Assembly (NCBI GenBank): GCA_030681265.1
Contig: JAUXXD010000094.1
Location: forward strand, 1-32,455
Reading direction: 5' to 3'
DNA length: 32,455 nt
Source of the DNA: Candidatus Didemnitutus sp.
Lineage (GTDB): Bacteria; Verrucomicrobiota; Verrucomicrobiia; Opitutales; Opitutaceae
Part shown: in pieces, positions 4,618 through 32,306 of the stretch
Layout: each line of letters begins with the position of its first letter
Position numbering within the stretch: the first letter of the stretch is position 1
Position numbers and translations under genes: made by a program
The notes under the pieces: generated by a model
Seen by the model: the letters and a program-made list of their open reading frames with translations, nothing else
Database searches by the model: none
Told to the model about the DNA's origin: nothing

Positions 4618-5508
4618 TTATTTCCGAGGCTCGCCCTTTGGGCGGGCCTTTTTCTTGGCGACGGGGCGCGGCGGTCGGCCAACGAGGAATTGCAACACGT
4701 CGCCGACGCGCGCGGCCCACGCGGCTTCGTTGTGCTGGCCGTTGGCGATCTCGCGGTAGGCGAGATCCTTGCCGGGCGTCCAACCGCGACTGACGAGCGT
4801 GTCGCGGAAGAGCGGCACGACTTCCCAACCCGGTTCTGCCGTGCCGATGTCGAGCCAGAGGCGCAAATCGAGTCGGCGACGCAGGCGCGCGAAGTCGTGC
4901 AGCGCCACGCGATTGTCCCACCACACGGATGGCGACAGCGCGGCAATGTTACCGAAGACGCGTGAGTGCCAGAGGCCGAAGTAGAGCGAGACGAGTCCGC
5001 CCATCGACGAGCCGACGACCGACGTGGTGCGCGGGCCGGGCAGCGTGAGGTAGCGCGCGTCAATGAATGGCTTTAACTCTTGGACAACGAAGCGCACGTA
5101 GCGTTTGGCGTCGCCCTTGCTGCGGCATTGCTCGCCATCCCACCCGGCGAATTCGCCGGGCGTGGGCGTGTATTCGTTCACGCGGTTGAAGCCGGTGTTA
5201 TAGATGCCGACCATAATCGGCGGCGTCAGCGCGCGACGTTTGATCAGCGCGGCGGCCTTGTCGCCGGCCATCCAGGCGTTGCCCAAAAAGGCCGTGAACG
5301 GATCAAAAACGTTCTGTCCGTCCTGAAAATAGATCACGGGATGACGGCGGCGACCTGAGCCGTAGCCGGGCGGAAACCAAATCGCGATGTCGCGGCAACC
5401 GCGCAAGCTGCGTGAATGAAAACGTTCATGCACAAGCAATTGAGCGGCGCCACGTCCGAGTCGGGGCGTGGGTGGGCGAGGGGATTTGGTGGAGGCGGCA
5501 GATTCCAT
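4618..5508 (-). CDS. Putative esterase (esterase D / enterochelin esterase-like alpha/beta hydrolase)
   Basis: HPVIYFQDGQNVFDP, GSSMGG nucleophile elbow and ISALSPSVWWD-like context (IAALSPSVWWDNR). Start taken at ATG 5508 (MESAASTKSPRP); the 5658 extension is low complexity and overlaps the divergent promoter region. Confidence 0.85.
   Translation of the reverse strand: MESAASTKSPRPPTPRLGRGAAQLLVHERFHSRSLRGCRDIAIWFPPGYGSGRRRHPVIYFQDGQNVFDPFTAFLGNAWMAGDKAAALIKRRALTPPIMVGIYNTGFNRVNEYTPTPGEFAGWDGEQCRSKGDAKRYVRFVVQELKPFIDARYLTLPGPRTTSVVGSSMGGLVSLYFGLWHSRVFGNIAALSPSVWWDNRVALHDFARLRRRLDLRLWLDIGTAEPGWEVVPLFRDTLVSRGWTPGKDLAYREIANGQHNEAAWAARVGDVLQFLVGRPPRPVAKKKARPKGEPRK
4628..4653 (+). terminator. 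Rho-independent terminator for the DUF4139 gene
   Basis: GGCTCGCCC-TTT-GGGCGGGCC followed by TTTTTC: 9-bp stem with one G-T pair. It lies inside the last codons of the convergent esterase ORF. Confidence 0.6.
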
Positions 5509-5660: not shown

Positions 5661-6383
5661 ATGCACGAACAACACCTCAATTGGTATACGCCGCACCTGA
5701 GCCGTCATTTCGACACGCTCTCGTTCGGGCATGCCGGTTATCCGGTGATCGTGTTTCCGACGTCGCTCGGCCGCTATTTTCAAAATCGCAATTTCGGTCT
5801 GATCGATTCCGTGGCGCATCTCGTCGATCAAGGACGCATCAAAATCTACTGTCCCGACGGCATCGACGAACAGAGTTGGTATAACCAATCGATCTCGCCG
5901 GCCGATCGCGTGCGCACGCATCTGGCCTATGAGCGCGTGATTTTGCACGACCTCGTTCCCCGCGCGCAGCACGAGACGGGACACGCGCGCGTGGCGGTGG
6001 CGGGGGCGAGCTTCGGCGGTTATCATGCGGTGAATTTCGCACTGCGTTACCCGCAGCTCGTCGGTTACTGCATCAGCATGAGCGGTTCGTTCGACATCCG
6101 CCCGTTTGTCGACGGGCATTACGACGACGACGTGTATTTCAACAACCCCGTCGATTACCTGCCGAATCTGCACGACCACGGGACACTCGAAAGCATCCGG
6201 CGCATGGGCATTATCCTGGGCACGGGCGACCGCGACTCTTGCCGAGACCGCAATTTTCAGTTATCAAATCTATTGAATGGCCAAGGCCTCCCGCACTTCC
6301 TCGACGACCGCAAATGGTGCGGCCACGACTGGAATTACTGGCGGGACATGTTTCCGCACTATCTCTCCCTCATTCACTCCTGA
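5661..6383 (+). CDS. Esterase-family alpha/beta hydrolase (COG4947-like)
   Basis: From MHEQHLNWYTPHLSRHFDTLSFGHAGYPVIVFPTSLGRYFQ; GASFGG nucleophile elbow; C-terminal KWCGHDWNYWRDMFPHYL with putative catalytic His. Confidence 0.85.
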   Translation: MHEQHLNWYTPHLSRHFDTLSFGHAGYPVIVFPTSLGRYFQNRNFGLIDSVAHLVDQGRIKIYCPDGIDEQSWYNQSISPADRVRTHLAYERVILHDLVPRAQHETGHARVAVAGASFGGYHAVNFALRYPQLVGYCISMSGSFDIRPFVDGHYDDDVYFNNPVDYLPNLHDHGTLESIRRMGIILGTGDRDSCRDRNFQLSNLLNGQGLPHFLDDRKWCGHDWNYWRDMFPHYLSLIHS

Positions 6384-6395
6384 CCCCAAAAATTT

Positions 6396-7370
6396 ATGAA
6401 AAAAATCGGCATCCTGCACGGTAAAGAACGCAGCTTCCCGCACGCCCTGATCGAGCGCATCAACGGCCTGAACGACCCCGGCATCACTGCCGAGGCCGTC
6501 AGCATCAACAAGGTCGCCCAAGGCGAACCGAGCGACTACGCCGTCATCCTCGACCGCATCTCGCAAGACGTGCCGTTCTACCGCGCCTACTTGAAAAACG
6601 CCGCGCTCAACGGCACCGCGGTGATCAACAATCCGTTCTGGTGGTCCGCCGACGAAAAGTTTTTCAACAACTGCCTCGCGACCAAACTTGGCGTCGCCGT
6701 GCCGAAGACCGTGATTCTCCCCTCGAAGGATCACCCGACCGACTGCTCCGCGGAGTCGTTCAGCAATCTCGCGTTCCCCCTGGATTGGGACGGCATTTTC
6801 GACTACATCGGCTGGCCCGCCTACTTCAAACCGCACTCCGGCGGCGGCTGGAAAAACGTCTACAAGGTCCGCGACGCCGACGAATTTTTCAAAGCCTACG
6901 CCGAGACCGGTCAGCTCGTGATGCTCCTGCAATCCGAGGTGCAATTCGACGATTACTACCGCTGCTACTGCATCGGCGGGACCGATGTGCGCATCATGCC
7001 CTATGAGCCGCGCAATCCGCACCACCTGCGCTATGTCGTTGATCGCCCGCCCGCGAGCCCCGCGCTCCTCGAGCGCATCAAGCAGGACGTCCTCACGCTC
7101 AACCAAGCGCTCGGTTACGATTTCAACACGGTCGAATTCGCGATCAGCGACGGCGTGCCGTATGCCATCGATTTCTGCAATCCTGCACCCGACGCCGACC
7201 GCGGTTCCGTGGGCGAGGAAAACTTCAAGTGGGTTGTCGAAGCCGCCGCGAACATGCTCGTGCGCAAAGCGCGCGAATTCAACCCGGCGACCAGCAGTCT
7301 CACCTGGGGCAAATACGTCCAAGCCAGCTCCGCCGGTAAATCGCTCACGGCGCCGGTTCGCAAAAAATAA
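6396..7370 (+). CDS. ATP-grasp superfamily ligase (RimK-like)
   Basis: PAYFKPHSGGGWKNVYKV (ATP-grasp lysine/glycine loop), FNTVEFAISDGVPYAIDFCNPAPDADRGS (metal-binding E...N motif). Starts 10 nt after the esterase stop. Confidence 0.85.
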   Translation: MKKIGILHGKERSFPHALIERINGLNDPGITAEAVSINKVAQGEPSDYAVILDRISQDVPFYRAYLKNAALNGTAVINNPFWWSADEKFFNNCLATKLGVAVPKTVILPSKDHPTDCSAESFSNLAFPLDWDGIFDYIGWPAYFKPHSGGGWKNVYKVRDADEFFKAYAETGQLVMLLQSEVQFDDYYRCYCIGGTDVRIMPYEPRNPHHLRYVVDRPPASPALLERIKQDVLTLNQALGYDFNTVEFAISDGVPYAIDFCNPAPDADRGSVGEENFKWVVEAAANMLVRKAREFNPATSSLTWGKYVQASSAGKSLTAPVRKK

Positions 7371-7473
7371 TCCGCCACGATTCCACGCGTCGTCAGGTCG
7401 CGCCGTTTGGTCCGGCCGGATGGGCGTGGAATTTACGGCGCGTCCCTCTCTTTAACTTCCACGCCTCCACGCC

Positions 7474-8595
7474 ATGTGCTCCGCCAAGTCCAAGCATCAA
7501 TTCACCCTCGGGATTGAGGAAGAGTTCCAGATCGTCGATCCCGTCACGCGCGAACTCAAATCGCACATCGAAGAGATCATCGAGGGCGGCAAGATGATCC
7601 TGAAGGAGCGCGTGCGCCCCGAGCTGCACCAATCCGTCGTCGAAGTCGGCACGGATATTTGCACCGACATCAAGGACGCCCGCCGCTCCGTGGCGGGTCT
7701 GCGCACGGACCTCGCGCGCCTCGCCCAGCAATCCGGACTGCGCATCGCCGCCGCCGGCACGCATCCGTTCTCGCATTGGAACGACCAGAAAATCTCCATC
7801 GGCGAGCGCCACCAAGGCGTGTTGAACGATCTGCAACAGGTCGCCCGCGCCAACCTCATCTTCGGCCTGCACGTCCACCTCGGCATGCTCGACCGCGAGA
7901 CGGCAATCCACCTGCAAAACACCGCGCGCTATTTCCTCCCGCACATTTTTGCGCTCTCGACCAACTCGCCGTTCTGGGTCGGCCGCAACACCGGCTACGC
8001 CTCCTATCGCCTGCAAGTGTTCCAACGCTTCCCGCGCACGGGCATTCCCGACTTGTTCGAATCCGTCGAGGAATTCGACGCCTACGTGAACCTGTTGGTG
8101 AAGACCGGTTGCATCGATAACGCCAAAAAAATCTGGTGGGATATCCGCCTGCACCCGATTTTCCACACGCTCGAGTTCCGCATCTGCGACATCCCGATGC
8201 GCGTGGACGAGACGATCTGCCTCGCCGCGATCATGCAGGCCGTCACGGCCAAGCTCTACAAATTGCACAAGAAAAACATGAGCTTCCGCACCTACCGCGC
8301 GCGGCTCATCAACGAAAACCGCTGGCGCGCCGCCCGCTATGGCATCAACGGCAAGATGATCGACTTCGGGACGCAGGAAGAAGTCGCCACGCGCAGCCTC
8401 ATCGCGGAGTTGCTGGAATTTATCGACGACGTGGTGGACGAACTCGGTTCGCGCGAGGAAGTCGACTACGTGCACACCATTCTGCGCAACGGCACCGGCG
8501 CCGACCGGCAGGTTGAAGTTTACCATCGCACGCAAGACCTCAAAGCCGTGGTCGATTACACGATTGCCGAAACCCATCACGGACTTGATCTCTAA
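7474..8595 (+). CDS. Carboxylate-amine ligase, glutamate-cysteine ligase type 2 (GCS2/YbdK) family
   Basis: N-terminal FTLGIEEEFQIVDPVTRELKSH, GTHPFSHW and FRICDIPMRVDE motifs of the YbdK/GCS2 family. Confidence 0.92.
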   Translation: MCSAKSKHQFTLGIEEEFQIVDPVTRELKSHIEEIIEGGKMILKERVRPELHQSVVEVGTDICTDIKDARRSVAGLRTDLARLAQQSGLRIAAAGTHPFSHWNDQKISIGERHQGVLNDLQQVARANLIFGLHVHLGMLDRETAIHLQNTARYFLPHIFALSTNSPFWVGRNTGYASYRLQVFQRFPRTGIPDLFESVEEFDAYVNLLVKTGCIDNAKKIWWDIRLHPIFHTLEFRICDIPMRVDETICLAAIMQAVTAKLYKLHKKNMSFRTYRARLINENRWRAARYGINGKMIDFGTQEEVATRSLIAELLEFIDDVVDELGSREEVDYVHTILRNGTGADRQVEVYHRTQDLKAVVDYTIAETHHGLDL

Positions 8596-8701
8596 CACCA
8601 ACCAACCCGCGAACAGCCAGTCCACCGCCCGACAATCCGCACCCGGTTTACCTGCCGACTGCCCGCTGCCCGCTCCTCGCTACCCACTTCCGCCCGACGC
8701 C

Positions 8702-9724
8702 ATGCCGCACGTAGCCACGCTGCCCACTTCCTTCGATCCCGAGCTGACGCCGGGCGCGCACAACGCGATCCACGTCTGCCTTCGCCTGCAACCGCACGAG
8801 CGCATGACCATCATCGCGGACGAAGCCTGCGCCGAAATCGCCGCCGCCCTCGTTGCCGAAATAAAGAGCGTCGGCTCCGAATACAACGTCTTCATCCTCG
8901 AGGAATACGGCCCGCGTCCGCACCACGACATGCCGCCGGAAATCCTCGCCGACCTCGCGCGCTCGCAAGTGTCCATCTACGCCTGCCTCACGCACCGCGG
9001 CGAACTCCGCACGCGCATGCAGATGATGGAAGTGCTCAACCCGCGCCGCCTGCGCCACGGGCACATGGTCAACATCAACCAGCAGATCATGCGCGAAGGC
9101 ATGCGCGCCGACTTCAACGAGGTCGATCGCCTCTCCCAAAAGCTGATCGAGAAATGCCGCCGCGCGAAACGCGTGACCTGCAAAACCGCTGCCGGCACCG
9201 ACTACGTCGCCGAACTTTCCCCTGATCTGAAATGGGTGAAGACGGCGGGCATCATCTCGCCGGAAAAATGGGGCAACCTGCCCGGCGGCGAAATCTTCAC
9301 GTCTCCCTTCAATTCCAACGGTCGCTTCGTGGTCGACGGCGTCGTCGGCGATTACCTCTGCCAAAAATACGGCGACATCGCCGCCACGCCGCTGACGATC
9401 GAGATCAAAGACAACCGCATCGCCAGCCTCGCTTGCGAAAACCAGGAGCTGCTCGCGGAGTTCGACAAGTATTGCCACACCGACGAAAACTCCGACCGCG
9501 TCGGCGAATTCGCCATCGGCACGAACCTCGCCTGCACACACATCATCGGCCACATTTTGCAGGACGAAAAACTCCCCGGCATCCACATCGCGTTCGGTCA
9601 TCCGTATTCCGAGCACACCGGCCAGCCGTGGAAAAGCACGACCCACATCGACTGCGTCGGCCGCAATTTCGACATCTGGCTCGACGACGAGCAAGTCATG
9701 GCCAACGGCAAGTTCCTCCTCTGA
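8702..9724 (+). CDS. M29-like metallopeptidase (aminopeptidase T / leucyl aminopeptidase-like)
   Basis: NLPGGEIFTSPFNSNGRFVVDG, RVGEFAIGTN, LPGIHIAFGHPYSEHTG, STTHIDCV: the ordered E/E/H/H/D ligand pattern expected for M29. Start assigned to ATG 8702; the 8513 ORF start overlaps the GCS2 gene. Confidence 0.82.
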   Translation: MPHVATLPTSFDPELTPGAHNAIHVCLRLQPHERMTIIADEACAEIAAALVAEIKSVGSEYNVFILEEYGPRPHHDMPPEILADLARSQVSIYACLTHRGELRTRMQMMEVLNPRRLRHGHMVNINQQIMREGMRADFNEVDRLSQKLIEKCRRAKRVTCKTAAGTDYVAELSPDLKWVKTAGIISPEKWGNLPGGEIFTSPFNSNGRFVVDGVVGDYLCQKYGDIAATPLTIEIKDNRIASLACENQELLAEFDKYCHTDENSDRVGEFAIGTNLACTHIIGHILQDEKLPGIHIAFGHPYSEHTGQPWKSTTHIDCVGRNFDIWLDDEQVMANGKFLL

Positions 9725-9737
9725 TCGCCGCACTTTC

Positions 9738-9839
9738 GTGAACCACGGAGGCACAGAGACGCGGAGTTCACTGAAAAAACCGAGGAGCTTTTTTTCCTTT
9801 GTATTTTTCTCTCCGCGCCTCTGTGCCTCTGTGGTTCAC
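9738..9839. repeat. Imperfect inverted repeat pair, 29 bp arms, interspersed 'ctctgtgcctctgtggtt' family
   Basis: gtgaaccacggaggcacagagacgcggag (9738-9766) versus ctccgcgcctctgtgcctctgtggttcac (9811-9839); the arms are reverse complements with 2 mismatches. Confidence 0.85.
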
Positions 9840-9850
9840 CTTCTGAATTC

Positions 9851-11044
9851 ATGATTACCTCACTCCGCCAGCGCTACAATGCCGCCTTCACCGAGGCGCG
9901 CTATGCGGCGTTCACGGATGACCTCAATCGCGCCGTGCGCTGGCCGGTGGATTTCCGCATGGCGGAAACGCCGCTCTTTCTCGACGAACACGCCACGCGC
10001 GAACTGATCCGTGCCGCGCACGACATCACCAGCCAGCTCGCGCAACCGGCTTTTCGCGACCACGCCGCCACCGCGATTCCCGCCGGGCTCAGCGTGCCCG
10101 GCGAAACACCGTGGCCGCACTTCCTCGCGGTCGATTTCGCGTTGTGCCACGACGAACAGGGCCGCGTGACGCCGCGCCTGATCGAGCTCCAAGGATTTCC
10201 CACCGTCGCCGCGTGGCAGGTTTTGTTGGCCAACGGTTATCGGCAACACTTCGAAGGCGTGCCGCCGGAATTCACCACTTATTTCGGCGGACTCGACGAA
10301 GCCGGCTATCTCGCCGCCATGCGCACGGCGATGATTGGCGACTGCGATCCGGAGAACGTCGTGCTGCTCGAAATCGAGCCGGAGAAGCAGAAGACGCGCG
10401 TCGATTTTGCCGCGACGGAAAAACTGCTCGGCGTGCGGCCCGTGTGCCTTTCGCAAGTGCAACGCCGCGGCCGCAAATTGTTCACCCACGTCGATGGACG
10501 CGAAGTGGCGATCGAGCGGATTTTCAACCGCGTGATTTTCGACGAGTTGCTGCGCCGTCCGGATTTCCAGCCGGGGTTCAACTTCACCGACGAAGTCGAC
10601 GTGCAATGGGCCGGGCACCCGAACTGGTATTTTCGCATCAGCAAGCACGCGATGCCGTTTCTGCGCAGTCCCTACGTGCCCGACTGTCATTTCGTCAGCC
10701 AGCTCGCGACGGTGCCTGACGACCTCGAAAACTACGTGCTCAAGCCGCTCTATTCGTTTGCAGGGTTGGGCGTCGATATTACGCCGACGCGCGAAAAAAT
10801 CGCCGCCGTGCCGAATCCGCACGAATGGATTCTCCAGCGCAAAGTCGCCTACGCGCCGATCCTCGCCACGCCCGACGGCCCGGCGAAAGCGGAATTGCGC
10901 CTCATCTTTGCGGGCGACGGCACGGGCATGCCGAAATTGTTGAACAACCTCGTGCGGCTCACGAAGGGCGCGATGCACGGCGTCGATTTCAACAAAGGCA
11001 AGACCTGGGTCGGTGCGAGCTGCGCGTTTCATCCGGCGATCTAG
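9851..11044 (+). CDS. ATP-grasp-like protein, apparently circularly permuted; uncharacterised
   Basis: ATP-grasp-like lysine motif KPLYSFAGLGVDI and EWILQRKV in the C-terminal half, followed by AELRLIF; a metal-motif-like PRLIELQGFPT in the N-terminal half. Classification is by motif only. Confidence 0.62.
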   Translation: MITSLRQRYNAAFTEARYAAFTDDLNRAVRWPVDFRMAETPLFLDEHATRELIRAAHDITSQLAQPAFRDHAATAIPAGLSVPGETPWPHFLAVDFALCHDEQGRVTPRLIELQGFPTVAAWQVLLANGYRQHFEGVPPEFTTYFGGLDEAGYLAAMRTAMIGDCDPENVVLLEIEPEKQKTRVDFAATEKLLGVRPVCLSQVQRRGRKLFTHVDGREVAIERIFNRVIFDELLRRPDFQPGFNFTDEVDVQWAGHPNWYFRISKHAMPFLRSPYVPDCHFVSQLATVPDDLENYVLKPLYSFAGLGVDITPTREKIAAVPNPHEWILQRKVAYAPILATPDGPAKAELRLIFAGDGTGMPKLLNNLVRLTKGAMHGVDFNKGKTWVGASCAFHPAI

Positions 11045-26090: not shown

Positions 26091-28295
26091 ATGGCCCATT
26101 ATAAGCAAATTGTCCGGCAGCAGGAAAGTCGCAAAGAGGGAGTCAAAGAACTCGCGGCGGCGGCCCGGTTAATTAGGCAGGGAGAAACGGCGCCTGCGCT
26201 TCGTGGTCTGGATCGACTGGCCGAGAAAGCGAAAACCGTTGAACTGAGGGGGAAGATTCTCGGTTTGGTGGGAGATGCGGCGATTCGACAAGGGGATTAC
26301 ACACGTGCTGCAAAAGCGTTTGAGGGCGCCGGGCAATTGGCGGAATACTCCATGAGATGGCTACGGGCTGCTCTTGGGCAATTGAGGGTTTTGTTTGCCG
26401 GGGGAAACATTGACCGAGCGGCTGAGTTTGCACTTGGCATGATTGATAGAGCGATTGAAAGTGAGCGTAAGGAACGCGAGCACTTGGCGAAGTGGAATGG
26501 AAGGGATGGCTTGGTCGTTTTGGAGCGCGTGCAGCGTCCGTCGGTGGTGGCGACACGCATCGCATCGGCATTCTTACGAGCTGGCGCACCTGAGATGGCC
26601 GCGACTTTTCTCCGGCGCGCCTTGGAGCTTCAGCCGAACGGTGCTACGCGTGCTCGTATCTTGTTGGCGAACTTGGCCTTTCGAAATAAAGATTACACTG
26701 CGGCGGAAAGGCACGCTAGTGAGGCGCTGGATATTGGGCGTTATGGTGCAAAGACACTCTCGGCTTGGGGTTTATTGCTGAATAGTCAGGCGCATTTGGG
26801 AATTCTCAGCCCCACGTGGACCGCCCTCTCCGGTCGATTGAAGTCGGCTCCAACGACGGTGCGTGCGCGCGCCGTGTTTGAGGCAATGAAGGCGCTGCGC
26901 TCCAGAGGAGATCTGCGATGGAGGGAGTATGCAAGCGAGTGGTCGTCTCTCCCGCAAAACCGAAGCACCAACACGCGAATTGCTGGGGAGATTGCCAAAA
27001 TAATGTTGGCTGACGCTGTTATCAATAAAGCACCCGTTGAAGAGCAATTAACCAAGGCGGTGCGACTGAAAGAGACGAAGGAAATAAGTCCGCGCGAATG
27101 GATGATCGCCACAAAGGTGGAGGTGAAAGCAGCGATAGCTCAAGGGCGCCCCGTCGACGTTGGGTTGCTGGTGAACCGAATCCGTGGTTTGGCTGCCAAG
27201 TCTGTCCCGCTGCAGATCTCGTTGAGGCACAGTCTTGCGAAGTTACTCTCTCGTTTGGGAGATCATGCCAGTGCCGAAACCTTGCTTCTCGGAAACCGGG
27301 CGCAGTTATCCGAGCGGGACAAGTTGTTTGCTCCAACCGCGTTTGCCTTGGCTCGCATCGAACGAATCAAGGGCCGGCGCGAAGTTGCAGCCTCCCATTA
27401 TTTGTCCGTATTCCGGTCGGATGCAGTGAGTCCGGCTAACCAAATTTCGGGACTTTGCGGATGGGCGGCGGCGATTGTTCCCGGACAATCGGATTCGAAT
27501 TCAACGGACGTTGCGCAGCGGGCCACCAAAGTAGTTGCCCAGATTTCCGACTACCGTAGTGCAATGCACGTTGCCTATTTGGCCGTAGGGAAGCCGGGGG
27601 TGTTCGCTAACTTGGGCAGACAAGCGATGGCGCGCGGAGAGAATCTTGCGTTGGCGGCTTTGGCGCGGGAGCCGTCGCGCCTGGAGACGTCCGCGATTCT
27701 GTATCGGCTTAGTCGCCGTCGTTACGACTACGGAAATTTCGACAAGATTGTGGCTCAATGGCGGGCAATGCCGGCGAATTCTCGCGAGTGGCTGCGCAGT
27801 GAAGCGTCCGACTATGCCGAATACCTTGGCTTGGTGTTTCGCGCGTATTGGCGATTGGATGAAAGGGAAGACGCGATCGCGCTTGCCGAAGGGGAGTTGA
27901 GCAGAAAACCGCTGTTGCCACTAGCCGCCGGCCAACTCGCGACTTTGCTGGGGCTGCGGTTAATCAGCACCGTTCGCAAAGGATATGCTTTCGAGCTTTT
28001 TGAAACGGCTGCGACGCAAGCGCCGCTCAATCCGATCACCGGATACGCGCACTACTGGTTGGCGGTGCGGGAATTTCGTCGGACGAACCAGGCCTCGGCG
28101 TTAAAGGCGATTCAGGCGTGCCGTCAGAGCCTCGGCCCGAAGCCGCAGCAGGGCTGGCAAGTTCGACTGGCTGCGGCAACCTATGTGTTAGAGTCATTAA
28201 TTGATCCCACCGCACTCGATCGCGCAGACGGGAAGCATTTGAAACACGGCGAGATGGCGACGGAGATCGTCAAAGCGGACCTGTCAATTTTGTGA
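26091..28295 (+). CDS. TPR-repeat protein, uncharacterised
   Basis: Repeated helical pairs such as LVGDAAIRQGDYTRAAKAFEGAGQL, ASAFLRAGAPEMAATFLRRALELQPNGATRARILLANLAFRNKDYTAAERHASEALDI. Confidence 0.75.
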   Translation: MAHYKQIVRQQESRKEGVKELAAAARLIRQGETAPALRGLDRLAEKAKTVELRGKILGLVGDAAIRQGDYTRAAKAFEGAGQLAEYSMRWLRAALGQLRVLFAGGNIDRAAEFALGMIDRAIESERKEREHLAKWNGRDGLVVLERVQRPSVVATRIASAFLRAGAPEMAATFLRRALELQPNGATRARILLANLAFRNKDYTAAERHASEALDIGRYGAKTLSAWGLLLNSQAHLGILSPTWTALSGRLKSAPTTVRARAVFEAMKALRSRGDLRWREYASEWSSLPQNRSTNTRIAGEIAKIMLADAVINKAPVEEQLTKAVRLKETKEISPREWMIATKVEVKAAIAQGRPVDVGLLVNRIRGLAAKSVPLQISLRHSLAKLLSRLGDHASAETLLLGNRAQLSERDKLFAPTAFALARIERIKGRREVAASHYLSVFRSDAVSPANQISGLCGWAAAIVPGQSDSNSTDVAQRATKVVAQISDYRSAMHVAYLAVGKPGVFANLGRQAMARGENLALAALAREPSRLETSAILYRLSRRRYDYGNFDKIVAQWRAMPANSREWLRSEASDYAEYLGLVFRAYWRLDEREDAIALAEGELSRKPLLPLAAGQLATLLGLRLISTVRKGYAFELFETAATQAPLNPITGYAHYWLAVREFRRTNQASALKAIQACRQSLGPKPQQGWQVRLAAATYVLESLIDPTALDRADGKHLKHGEMATEIVKADLSIL

Positions 28296-31200
28296 TGAAC
28301 ACTCTGGTCATGACCCGGATCCTAAAATTGCTTGGTGTAGTCTGGGGCATATCCGTGTCGGTAGTAGCGATCGGACAAGTCTACTTTCCGGTCAGCACAC
28401 CGCGATTCCAAACGGCCATTCATGTGGAGAGGACCAAGAATAGCGATGGAACCCATTCGTTGTCAGTTACGAATTCGTCAATGGGCAATCAAATCGCTCT
28501 GTCTGTTTTGGGCGGCGCGACTTCTGTCGAGGTTCCTGGACATGGGCTCTTCATTGAGCGCACCAATGGGGTCTCATTTCGCGCGGAAATGTTGCCTGCG
28601 TCGGGATGGAGGGTTTCGGGCTCTCGATTAATCCGACCTTCCGACGTGCCGACCATCGCGCGTTGGGCGTCCTCAACTCAAAATGGCGACACCGTGGACT
28701 TCGTGGTAAACTTTAGGGAGAAGCAGCCGCAGGGCCTAACCGTCGTTGGTGGTTACTTCGAGAAAGTTGAAGACAATCCCGCCGGCACTGTGACGGAAGC
28801 AGTATTTATCGGCGCCCATGTTATGTTGGCCGATCTCGATGTTGATAGCATGAACACGGGTTCAGTCACATTTGACTCGGAGTCCGACAAGGTCGAACAT
28901 CCCGAAATCGGAAGCGACAAGCCGGGGAAAATATTGGTTTTCCAAACCCGCGCAGACACGGATGGTGATGGAATAGAGGATTTTCGCCAGTTCACTCCGT
29001 GCGGAGCACAACCTTTTGCCGGCATGACACTCTTTCTGGACGGACTTCCCTCTGGCTCCAAAATGCGCTTTCTCTACAGCGGCTCGGACCCCGAAAAGAT
29101 CGTGAAAAAAACCGTCAACGGAGTTGATGTCTATGAACCCGCCCCGGGACACCTGCGAGTTTGGAACGTAAACAATGATAAGCCGCGCAATCCGACATCA
29201 TTCAACGCCATGGGAAACTACCTGCCGCCCAATGTCGCGTTCTCGCTCGATGACCTGCGCAAACGAGCGCGCAACGGCCCGGACAACCCCGGAGAAGGCC
29301 ATTTCATATTCTACATCGAACCAATTGCGATTAGCGAAAAACTGGCCGACCAAACGGTCACGGCACAGGTCCAGCTGCCAGGAGCCGCCGCCGATTGGAT
29401 AACGATTGATACCGTTGCGTTCACGGTGACTCAAATGAGCATCGCCGCCGACACTGATAGGGCTGGCAAAATCGATTTTGTCCGCGATCGAAAGGCTGCA
29501 GCGAAAACACCCTTTCGATTTTGGATTAATGATGATGATGACGACGGGGACGAAGCCAACCAGACCCTGCTCGGCGGCAACAGCGACGAGCCCGGCAAAC
29601 TGTCGGGGTGGTTCGAATTTGACGGACGCACGCCTGACCACGCCAAGACTGGCGTTGATGGTCGCTGCGACCTGATCGACCTCTTTCCTGTATACTTAGA
29701 TATAAAGCAGCTCTTGACGGTGCTGCCGCACACCACTGCGGGAAACACCTACAAACTAAAGCAGGGCGACTCCGGGCTAAATATTGTATATACCGATCTT
29801 GCCCGCGATCATGCGTTTGACTACCTGACCAAAGAAGACGCGGTTTATGGGACGGGAATGAACAGGCTTCCGCACCTTGCGGAAACCACGGCCATCACCG
29901 CCGAGGGTGCCCCGCTCAGTGTCACGTTCCTCGACAAGATCAAGAACGGCACGGACAAGGGCGTCATCTTGGTCGAAGGCACGAAGGCGACCGACAAACC
30001 GCTGCGCCTGGTCGTCGAGAAGGGTGGCGCGGTAATCGCGGAAATCTCGCTGAATATAAAGATCAGCGAAGTGGAGAAAATGTATCGTTGGGTGAACCTG
30101 CGCGGCGCGGCCGGCCAATCAGAGAAGCGTCCCACCAACACCAATGAGCCCGAGAATTACCCCGACAATCGCACGAATGGGAAAATGTTCATCTGGCTGC
30201 ACGGCTATAACGTGAACGAGCAGCAGTCCCGCGCTTGGAACGCGGAGGCCTTCAAGCGCCTATATCAATCCGGCTCACGGGCGATGTTTACGGCAGTCAC
30301 TTGGCACGGCGACCACAGCCAAATCCCGCTGATCGGCGTAGCGCCCGACTACTGGGAAAATATAACTCATGCCTTCAAGACCTCGGCCGTGTTGCCCGCC
30401 GCCGTCAGTGCGCTGCCCGGCTCATCCAAGATCATCGTCGGGCACAGCATGGGCAACGTAGTCGTCGCCAGCGCGATCAAAGACCACGGCTTGAGCGTTA
30501 CGAAATACTTTATGCTCAACGCCGCCGTGGCGCTGGAGGCGTTCGATACGAACGCGATGAGCATCGATGCCATGCGCCATCAAAATTGGGCCACATATGA
30601 TCCGCACCTGTGGGCCACGGAATGGTATCAACTGTTCCCCGGCGAAGGCCGCGCCGGTTTGACGTGGCGCAACCGGTTCGGAGACATCTCCAACGCGATC
30701 AACTTCTATTCCTCCGGCGAGGAGGTCTTGAACAACAATGACGCGGCCAGCGGCGGCACGCCCGGGCAGGTTCCGCCGATCGGTGGCGAGCGCGCTTGGG
30801 TGCTGCAAGAAATGGTCAAGGGCACGCGACATATATACGCGGTGCTCACCTTCGACAGTCAAGGCGGCTGGGGCTTTAACGGGCATTGGGACATATCGGA
30901 AACCACCACGACACACGGGCCGCACGGTGGCACAACCACGACTTATCGTCACCTGGACCCGACCGAGGCAAACGGGCTTACCAACGACGAGCTCAAGGCG
31001 CAGCCGTTCTTCCGCCGCTTCCAAAACACCGCCCTCCTCGGGGCGAACGGCAGCACCACGGCTAGCGAATACCTGGTGCGTGCCGACGCCCTCGGCACGG
31101 CGATTCCCGCGCTCTCGTTTCCCACCGGGAGAAATCCAATACCTCTCTTTGATCAGCAGGACAGAAACGTGAATCTGATGGACTTGAAAAATGGATGGCC

Positions 31201-31303
31201 GCGGTCGGCGGGACGCTGGCTCCACAGCGATGCCAAAAACGTTGCCTACCGCTACAATCATAAACTCTGGGAAAAGTGGGTGGATGATGGAGGACTTAGA
31301 TAA
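28295..31303 (+). CDS. Large exported protein with C-terminal lipase-like alpha/beta hydrolase domain
   Basis: Hydrophobic N-terminus (ILKLLGVVWGISVSVVAIGQVYF); DTDGDGIEDFRQF and RFWINDDDDDGDEANQ acidic loops; GKMFIWLHGYNVNEQQSRAWNAEAF ... SSKIIVGHSMGNVVVASAIKDHG (GHSMG elbow) ... GRWLHSDAKNVAY. ATG at 28295 overlaps the upstream TGA by 1 nt; GTG 28292 is an alternative start. Confidence 0.78.
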   Translation: MNTLVMTRILKLLGVVWGISVSVVAIGQVYFPVSTPRFQTAIHVERTKNSDGTHSLSVTNSSMGNQIALSVLGGATSVEVPGHGLFIERTNGVSFRAEMLPASGWRVSGSRLIRPSDVPTIARWASSTQNGDTVDFVVNFREKQPQGLTVVGGYFEKVEDNPAGTVTEAVFIGAHVMLADLDVDSMNTGSVTFDSESDKVEHPEIGSDKPGKILVFQTRADTDGDGIEDFRQFTPCGAQPFAGMTLFLDGLPSGSKMRFLYSGSDPEKIVKKTVNGVDVYEPAPGHLRVWNVNNDKPRNPTSFNAMGNYLPPNVAFSLDDLRKRARNGPDNPGEGHFIFYIEPIAISEKLADQTVTAQVQLPGAAADWITIDTVAFTVTQMSIAADTDRAGKIDFVRDRKAAAKTPFRFWINDDDDDGDEANQTLLGGNSDEPGKLSGWFEFDGRTPDHAKTGVDGRCDLIDLFPVYLDIKQLLTVLPHTTAGNTYKLKQGDSGLNIVYTDLARDHAFDYLTKEDAVYGTGMNRLPHLAETTAITAEGAPLSVTFLDKIKNGTDKGVILVEGTKATDKPLRLVVEKGGAVIAEISLNIKISEVEKMYRWVNLRGAAGQSEKRPTNTNEPENYPDNRTNGKMFIWLHGYNVNEQQSRAWNAEAFKRLYQSGSRAMFTAVTWHGDHSQIPLIGVAPDYWENITHAFKTSAVLPAAVSALPGSSKIIVGHSMGNVVVASAIKDHGLSVTKYFMLNAAVALEAFDTNAMSIDAMRHQNWATYDPHLWATEWYQLFPGEGRAGLTWRNRFGDISNAINFYSSGEEVLNNNDAASGGTPGQVPPIGGERAWVLQEMVKGTRHIYAVLTFDSQGGWGFNGHWDISETTTTHGPHGGTTTTYRHLDPTEANGLTNDELKAQPFFRRFQNTALLGANGSTTASEYLVRADALGTAIPALSFPTGRNPIPLFDQQDRNVNLMDLKNGWPRSAGRWLHSDAKNVAYRYNHKLWEKWVDDGGLR

Positions 31304-31307
31304 AAAC

Positions 31308-32306
31308 ATGAAAGCTATAGCATTAATAATCAGTTTAATTGCCACAGCAGCGTGGGCGCAACAGCCCGCGCCTGCGGCTCGTTATCCTGCGCAAATCACC
31401 TTCCGTGTCCTGACGGATGCGGATGCGCCCGTGCCAAATGTCGAAGTGACAACTAGCACATTCCTATATTGGCAACCCGGCGAAGGCTTTGGCCGCGACA
31501 TCTACGAAGAAAACAAAGGGCGAACCAACGACGAGGGACTGGCCACCATCAGTTTTACCAGCGAGCGCAGCGACTGCAATTATGGGATTTACGACGTCTC
31601 CGGCTACTACTCGACACGAAATTTAACATACAGGTTTACGGAGGTAAAAGCAGGACGCTGGGAGCCATGGAATCCAACGATTGAGGTGGTTTTAAAGCCG
31701 GTTCTTAAGCCCGTTGCTATGTATGCGCGAAAGATCGGGGGTGGTCGCCCATTTGAAATCCCCGCATTAAACAAACCCGCAGGCTTCGATTCGATGGTCG
31801 GCGACTGGATCGCTCCTTGGGGCAAGGGCAAGTCGTCCGACCTTATAATTACATTAAAAGAAGTGGTTCCATTCGTCGAAGGCACTAAGCCATTTAACTA
31901 CATCTTATCTATCTCCTTTCCTAACGAGCGCGACGGCATACAGCCGGTATTCGCAACGCCTCACAAAGGAAGCGATCTACTTTTGCCGCGCTATGCGCCA
32001 GAAGATGGCTACGCACCCATATTAGAAAAACAGATGGCGATCTTCGCCGAGGGGAAGCCCATGAAATTTGACACGCGCGAGGATCAAAACTACTTCTTCC
32101 GGGTGCGCACGGTGCTGGATGAGCAAGGTCGTATAAAGAGCGCTCTATACGGCAAAATATTAGGCGACATCAAGTTCGGCGTAAACCGTGTGCTCCGCTT
32201 CAACTACTATCTAAACCCAACGTCGTTGGATAGAAACATGGAGTTTGATCCAAAGAACAACCTGTTCACCGGTTTGCGCGGCTTAGAAGAGATCGAGGCA
32301 CCGTAA
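31308..32306 (+). CDS. Exported protein with Ig-like/carboxypeptidase-regulatory-like N-terminal region, uncharacterised
   Basis: Signal peptide MKAIALIISLIATAAWAQQPAPA; then ITFRVLTDADAPVPNVEVTTSTF...GRTNDEGLATISFTS (modular Ig-like pattern). Starts 4 nt after the upstream stop. Confidence 0.75.
   Translation: MKAIALIISLIATAAWAQQPAPAARYPAQITFRVLTDADAPVPNVEVTTSTFLYWQPGEGFGRDIYEENKGRTNDEGLATISFTSERSDCNYGIYDVSGYYSTRNLTYRFTEVKAGRWEPWNPTIEVVLKPVLKPVAMYARKIGGGRPFEIPALNKPAGFDSMVGDWIAPWGKGKSSDLIITLKEVVPFVEGTKPFNYILSISFPNERDGIQPVFATPHKGSDLLLPRYAPEDGYAPILEKQMAIFAEGKPMKFDTREDQNYFFRVRTVLDEQGRIKSALYGKILGDIKFGVNRVLRFNYYLNPTSLDRNMEFDPKNNLFTGLRGLEEIEAP

Follow-up and report, generated by a model that had tools for sequence, protein, structure and literature searches.

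A conserved unit of three ATP-dependent ligases with hydrolases lies in the window, the whole stretch of 32,455 nucleotides analysed here, which is contig 21 of a 3.56-Mb Candidatus Didemnitutus genome (98.9% complete; Opitutaceae type, Verrucomicrobiota). We suggest that this locus is dedicated to a non-ribosomal amidoligase pathway that has its own hydrolase and would yield a small, soluble peptide or peptide amide resembling glutathione (probability about 0.58). The co-occurrence of the ligases even where their genes are unlinked, their correlated evolution, their intact catalytic residues and the lack of a conserved tag or precursor open reading frame (ORF) in or near the cluster together favor small peptide or amide biosynthesis. 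The initial annotation had proposed that three ligases and their hydrolases could assemble, release and recycle such a compound; the conserved ligase/hydrolase unit and the intact residues agree with this proposal but do not fix the identity of the product.

A conserved unit of six genes

Five collinear genes with short gaps had been described between positions 5661 and 11044. All five are intact on the forward strand, with a spacing of 12-126 bp (Table 1), and other genomes conserve their order to an extent far above chance expectation. They are under purifying selection, with a dN/dS of 0.12-0.19 per gene against a congener. The five genes are indeed conserved together, but the unit is larger than first drawn: the divergent esterase on the reverse strand, beyond 5661-11044, is its sixth member, and a homolog of it adjoins the cluster in most relatives. 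This esterase scores 90.3 bits against Pfam PF00756 (cut-off 22) and carries a GxSxGG nucleophile motif. The first esterase of the cluster matches the same family (50.8 bits, E = 2.5e-13), and its triad Ser117-Asp192-His222 is conserved in the 31 motif-bearing homologs; the gene was aligned in nine species and is missing from three relatives.

Table 1. Positions of the cluster genes and of the inverted repeat in the window
Feature	Position	Strand	Basis or remark
Divergent esterase ("fesest")	about 4618-5508	-	PF00756; maximal ORF to 5658, probable ATG 5508
Esterase (alpha/beta-hydrolase)	5661-6383	+	PF00756; ATG at 5661
ATP-grasp 1, Ddl/LysX-like ligase	6396-7370	+	Predicted fold and invariant residues
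GCS2/YbdK-type carboxylate-amine ligase	7474-8595	+	PF04107, PRK13515
M29-family metallopeptidase	8702-9724	+	PF02073; maximal ORF from 8513
Inverted repeat, 29-nt arms	9738-9839		93% complementary; between M29 and ATP-grasp 2
ATP-grasp 2, circularly permuted	9851-11044	+	Predicted glutathione/glutathionylspermidine-synthetase fold

The inverted repeat was rejected as a part of the system. Its half-site CTCTGTGCCTCTGTGGTTCA has 11 copies in the genome at no more than one mismatch (none for the reversed control), so the element is dispersed, and none of the loci compared from other genomes contains its 16-nt core. Rfam gave no match over the whole window, and a scan for sigma-70 promoters found none versus 1.5 expected by chance. 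Elsewhere in the window, downstream of a TPR protein, two overlapping ORFs at 28292-31303 (1003 aa) and 31191-32306 (371 aa) have no Pfam match at E = 0.001.

The three ligases

The third gene had been assigned to the GCS2/YbdK-type ligases, and its protein is a full member of the E. coli YbdK/PRK13515 ligases by score (539 bits against PRK13515, cut-off 371; PF04107, E = 6.8e-62). Aligned with E. coli YbdK (1r8g), it has the same catalytic motifs, GIEEE at 13-17 (GhExE), HVH at 133-135 (HxH) and E234xR236. To our knowledge, no three-ligase operon is known for YbdK. In one Chitinophagales genome (L054, 7602-8710) the GCS2 match falls into two segments; this gene may be split or frameshifted, or the break may be a sequencing error.

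Neither of the two ATP-grasp proteins exceeds any curated Pfam or NCBIfam cut-off in family-model searches, and searches of PDB sequences gave sub-threshold matches only; their folds were therefore taken from structure prediction. The model of ATP-grasp 1 (pLDDT 86) matches the folds of Ddl, LysX, ArgX and RimK with E values of about 1e-13. RimK is thus among its fold matches, but the earlier label "RimK-like" is too loose because no RimK family model passed (20.9 bits against NCBIfam rimK_fam, cut-off 143.4). Invariant in ATP-grasp 1 are K88, K145, the GGGW loop, R189, E247 and a shifted final motif, D259-x-x-N262. K88 is found in all 34 members and starts the helix 88-97 of the model, and we judge it by its motif position to be the linker lysine before the RAGNYA domain. 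An extra residue in the loop after the strand-2 lysine, K153, is lysine in 33 of the 34 and arginine in one.

These features bear on the relationship of ATP-grasp 1 with the R2K clade, which lacks the linker lysine (PMC4431377). Weak R2K matches were obtained for 21 of the 34 members (best E = 9e-4), and the Pfam cut-offs of R2K_2 and R2K_3 were not reached, the protein of the window scoring 13.2 bits against a cut-off of 26.2. ATP-grasp 1 shares with R2K the second lysine in the loop between strands 2 and 3 (K153), and the asparagine one place downstream in its final motif recalls the ExGD of R2K.3; it differs in retaining the linker lysine and the GGGW loop as well as in its sub-threshold scores. 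No curated model covers the family of ATP-grasp 1, which stands between R2K and the enzymes of the Ddl/LysX type.

The AlphaFold2 model of ATP-grasp 2 (pLDDT 93) bears out the description of this protein as permuted. Its best structural matches reach E = 9e-14, and all 32 matches with E no greater than 0.001 belong to the glutathione/glutathionylspermidine-synthetase group or its kin (YgiC/YjfC, Cp1B), including human and yeast glutathione synthetase, glutathionylspermidine synthetase, YgiC and YjfC; the predicted fold is that of the circularly permuted synthetases. Moreover, the ExN-type motif (E112-x-Q114) lies N-terminal to the KP lysine K298, the order that a permuted enzyme should show, and both are invariant together with K331, E348 and R350. 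The protein of the window has no match to Pfam GSP_synth, and 4 of 29 members of the family do (best E = 9e-4). The predicted likeness to the glutathione-synthetase fold leaves the substrate of ATP-grasp 2 unfixed. With E. coli YgiC and YjfC it shares the permuted ATP-grasp fold and a weak sequence match near the KP strand, but the identity is about 13-17%, and we know of no gene-context relation between these proteins and the cluster. Conserved catalytic residues, on which the reading of the locus as a ligase cluster depends, are thus kept in ATP-grasp 1, ATP-grasp 2 and GCS2 alike.

Two loci in other genomes show altered ATP-grasp 2 genes. In G169 (C1:1768283-1769545) residues 1-145 and 146-394 are matched separately, about 80 bases apart within one open frame, which suggests an in-frame insertion. 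In G389 (C68:129850-130041) a fragment of 65 residues, in a genome without ATP-grasp 1, looks like the remnant of a lost cluster.

Distribution and coevolution

Of 57 genomes, 10 (that of the window included) have both ATP-grasp 1 and ATP-grasp 2, and none has only one of the two. The nine others, close relatives, have the same gene order, except that the first esterase is missing from one and the divergent esterase from another. The first esterase is missing from two further relatives as well. The complete set also occurs in other families of the class, with a ligase identity of 53-70%. Among 388 genomes of the phylum, ATP-grasp 1 occurs in 13, and a PRK13515 GCS2 above the cut-off occurs in the same 13; ATP-grasp 2 occurs in 14, namely these 13 (full-length) plus the 65-residue fragment. 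The 13 cluster-bearing genomes represent three families, and the counts are not phylogenetically independent.

To follow the cluster outside the phylum, we scanned about 85,000 GTDB species genomes with ATP-grasp 1, which gave at least 542 relatives. The loci analyzed are the best 80 of these and are biased toward loci close to the query from the window: 66 are from Bacteroidota, 6 from Ignavibacteriota, 5 from Verrucomicrobiota, 1 from Acidobacteriota, 1 from a genome labeled Actinomycetota and 1 from a genome that carries no phylum name. The single Actinomycetota-labeled relative is perhaps mis-binned. GCS2 is the next gene after ATP-grasp 1 in nearly all of these best 80, usually with the divergent esterase. 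The genes stay together in families of Verrucomicrobiota, in Bacteroidota and in other phyla.

It is also evident that the system is split into two loci in many Chitinophagaceae, which keep both halves. In 19 genomes, mostly of Bacteroidota, the ATP-grasp 1 locus is without ATP-grasp 2, and in 18 of the 19 ATP-grasp 2 is encoded elsewhere, with an amidotransferase within 1.5 kb in 15 of the 18. The system thus consists of two modules, one of esterase, ATP-grasp 1 and GCS2 and the other of a hydrolase or amidotransferase and ATP-grasp 2. Furthermore, the three ligases show correlated pairwise distances (r = 0.84-0.88 versus at most 0.22 in permutations).

Proposed pathway and alternatives

The genes present and conserved, the joint occurrence of the ligases, their predicted folds and their catalytic residues are the observations from which we infer a serial action of the three ligases, the order of their steps, their substrates and the roles of the hydrolases. 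GCS2 would phosphorylate a carboxylate, which for most enzymes of its kind is the gamma-carboxylate of glutamate, and couple it to an amine; ATP-grasp 1 may attach an amino acid or similar group to the GCS2 product or to another intermediate; and the peptide carboxylate may be coupled to another amine by ATP-grasp 2. The esterases could act on ester or thioester conjugates, to release, de-block or detoxify them. Successive action is common among linked peptide ligases (PMC4431377), and YgiC/YjfC, of the same fold as ATP-grasp 2, are peptide-spermidine ligases (Pederick 2023, cited in PMC12568646). The two halves could also act on different substrates, because many Chitinophagaceae link only the esterase, ATP-grasp 1 and GCS2. 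No conserved exporter or amino-acid-modifying enzyme was found with the cluster.

We infer the glutathione-like nature of the product from a comparison with the glutathione/glutathionylspermidine pathway, which likewise combines GCS-type and ATP-grasp ligases and has in its eukaryotic glutathione synthetase (GSS) and glutathionylspermidine synthetase (GspS) the fold predicted for ATP-grasp 2. The differences are that ATP-grasp 2 has 9-17% identity to GSS/GspS structures and does not pass the GSP_synth cut-off, and that the cluster adds a Ddl/LysX-like ligase and esterases. In addition, a search of the window's genome for GshA (PF04262), prokaryotic GshB (PF02955), BshC and a second GCS2 detected none of these four.

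The slot between GCS2 and ATP-grasp 2 is the most variable part of the system and bears on several alternatives. In the window it holds the M29 protein, which scores 57 bits against Peptidase_M29 (PF02073, cut-off 27); E197, E269, H295, H315 and D317, partly aligned with AmpS (1zjc) and NicX, are invariant in all cluster members. We take these residues to be the two-metal ligands of M29 peptidases. A reading as a NicX-like dioxygenase was dropped, since neither of the two glutamates that serve the peptidases as metal ligands varies. The M29 peptidase, which the initial annotation listed, is not a fixed member of the cluster: among the best 80 of the at least 542 relatives, the slot holds M29, a class-I glutamine amidotransferase or nothing, and the first two never co-occur in one cluster. 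On the tree of the three ligases, these three states need two changes, the minimum. The amidotransferase is the gene of this slot in Bacteroidota; it exceeds the PF00117 cut-off, conserves its Cys and His-Glu residues and immediately precedes ATP-grasp 2 in every one of the 20 loci where the two are linked, no more than 200 bp away in 19 of them and with a 4-nt overlap in five. Ignavibacteriota with an empty slot (L158-L161, genomes G445-G449) have a distant M29 homolog elsewhere in the genome, at about 100-120 bits. We propose that M29 or the amidotransferase would share a compound with ATP-grasp 2, most likely as its hydrolase.

Such an interchangeable hydrolase also recalls the use of amines or amino acids in the manner of the Puu pathway, in which PuuA and PuuD pair a ligase with a class-I amidotransferase-type hydrolase. 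Here an amine would first be blocked with glutamate by a ligase, and the product would later be set free by the hydrolase, M29 or amidotransferase-like. The ligase and amidotransferase pairing of the cluster fits this logic, and PuuA and GCS2 share the broad ligase fold; but the scheme needs fewer than three ligases, and no aminotransferase, aldehyde dehydrogenase or amine oxidase is prominent among the recurring neighbors, which makes it unlikely.

Quite unlikely, too, is a modification of a host protein, to which one or more ligases would add amino acids or a short peptide that M29 or the amidotransferase removes, as with RimK, R2K and pupylation. ATP-grasp 1 is weakly R2K-like and R2K enzymes are predicted to modify proteins (PMC4431377), and PafA also arose from the GCS2 fold (PMC2588565). 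However, a search of about 97 loci for conserved ORFs of 20-110 aa on the coding strand, in the cluster or up to 1.5 kb away, gave no convincing candidate, the recurring small-ORF matches being nearly all antisense to cluster or flanking genes. This argues against a peptide tag or a RiPP precursor, and protein tagging, which had been raised as an option, gains no positive support. Moreover, no proteasome, target or chaperone gene recurs beside the cluster, and known tagging systems need fewer than three ligases and two esterases.

The position of the Bacteroidota amidotransferase, directly before or overlapping ATP-grasp 2, its intact Cys and His-Glu residues and its persistence with ATP-grasp 2 in split systems would suit glutamine-dependent amidation, in which it feeds ammonia to ATP-grasp 2 to yield a peptide amide, as in CarA/CarB or the synthesis of N-acetylglutaminylglutamine amide. 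An ammonia donor fits the slot poorly because an M29 peptidase, which cannot supply ammonia, replaces the amidotransferase in one clade, and the slot is empty in another; we therefore hold this scheme to be quite improbable. A graspetide-like RiPP, with a ribosomal precursor cyclized by ATP-grasp 1, is highly improbable: the ligases PsnB and MdnC are among the fold matches of ATP-grasp 1, but Ddl and LysX outrank them, and the precursor would have to come from outside the cluster and its surroundings.

The non-ribosomal amidoligase pathway is in keeping with what is known of similar gene sets. The Puu and N-acetylglutaminylglutamine amide sets follow a like logic of ligase plus amidotransferase or peptidase; they use other ligase families, and we know of no marker genes that they have in common with the cluster. 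Iyer et al. 2009 (Mol BioSyst) reportedly surveyed amidoligase neighborhoods in which ATP-grasp and GCS2-type ligases are linked with hydrolases. Linked amidoligases with hydrolases are a known kind of system; no prior description of this gene set was found in the literature searched, which lay apart from that survey. A bolder proposal, and a rather unlikely one, is that three independently assembled ligases make a cofactor or protective peptide that is glutathione-like, has not been described before and is widespread in Bacteroidota, Verrucomicrobiota and Ignavibacteriota, at least some of them without canonical glutathione genes. ATP-grasp 1 and ATP-grasp 2 represent families that match no curated model and occur in hundreds of soil and water bacteria, consistently with a recognizable GCS2. 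The lineage-specific swap of metallopeptidase and amidotransferase makes the role of the fourth slot directly testable, and the product, once found, would enlarge the set of metabolites for much of Bacteroidota and Verrucomicrobiota, possibly by a new compound of the glutathione type.
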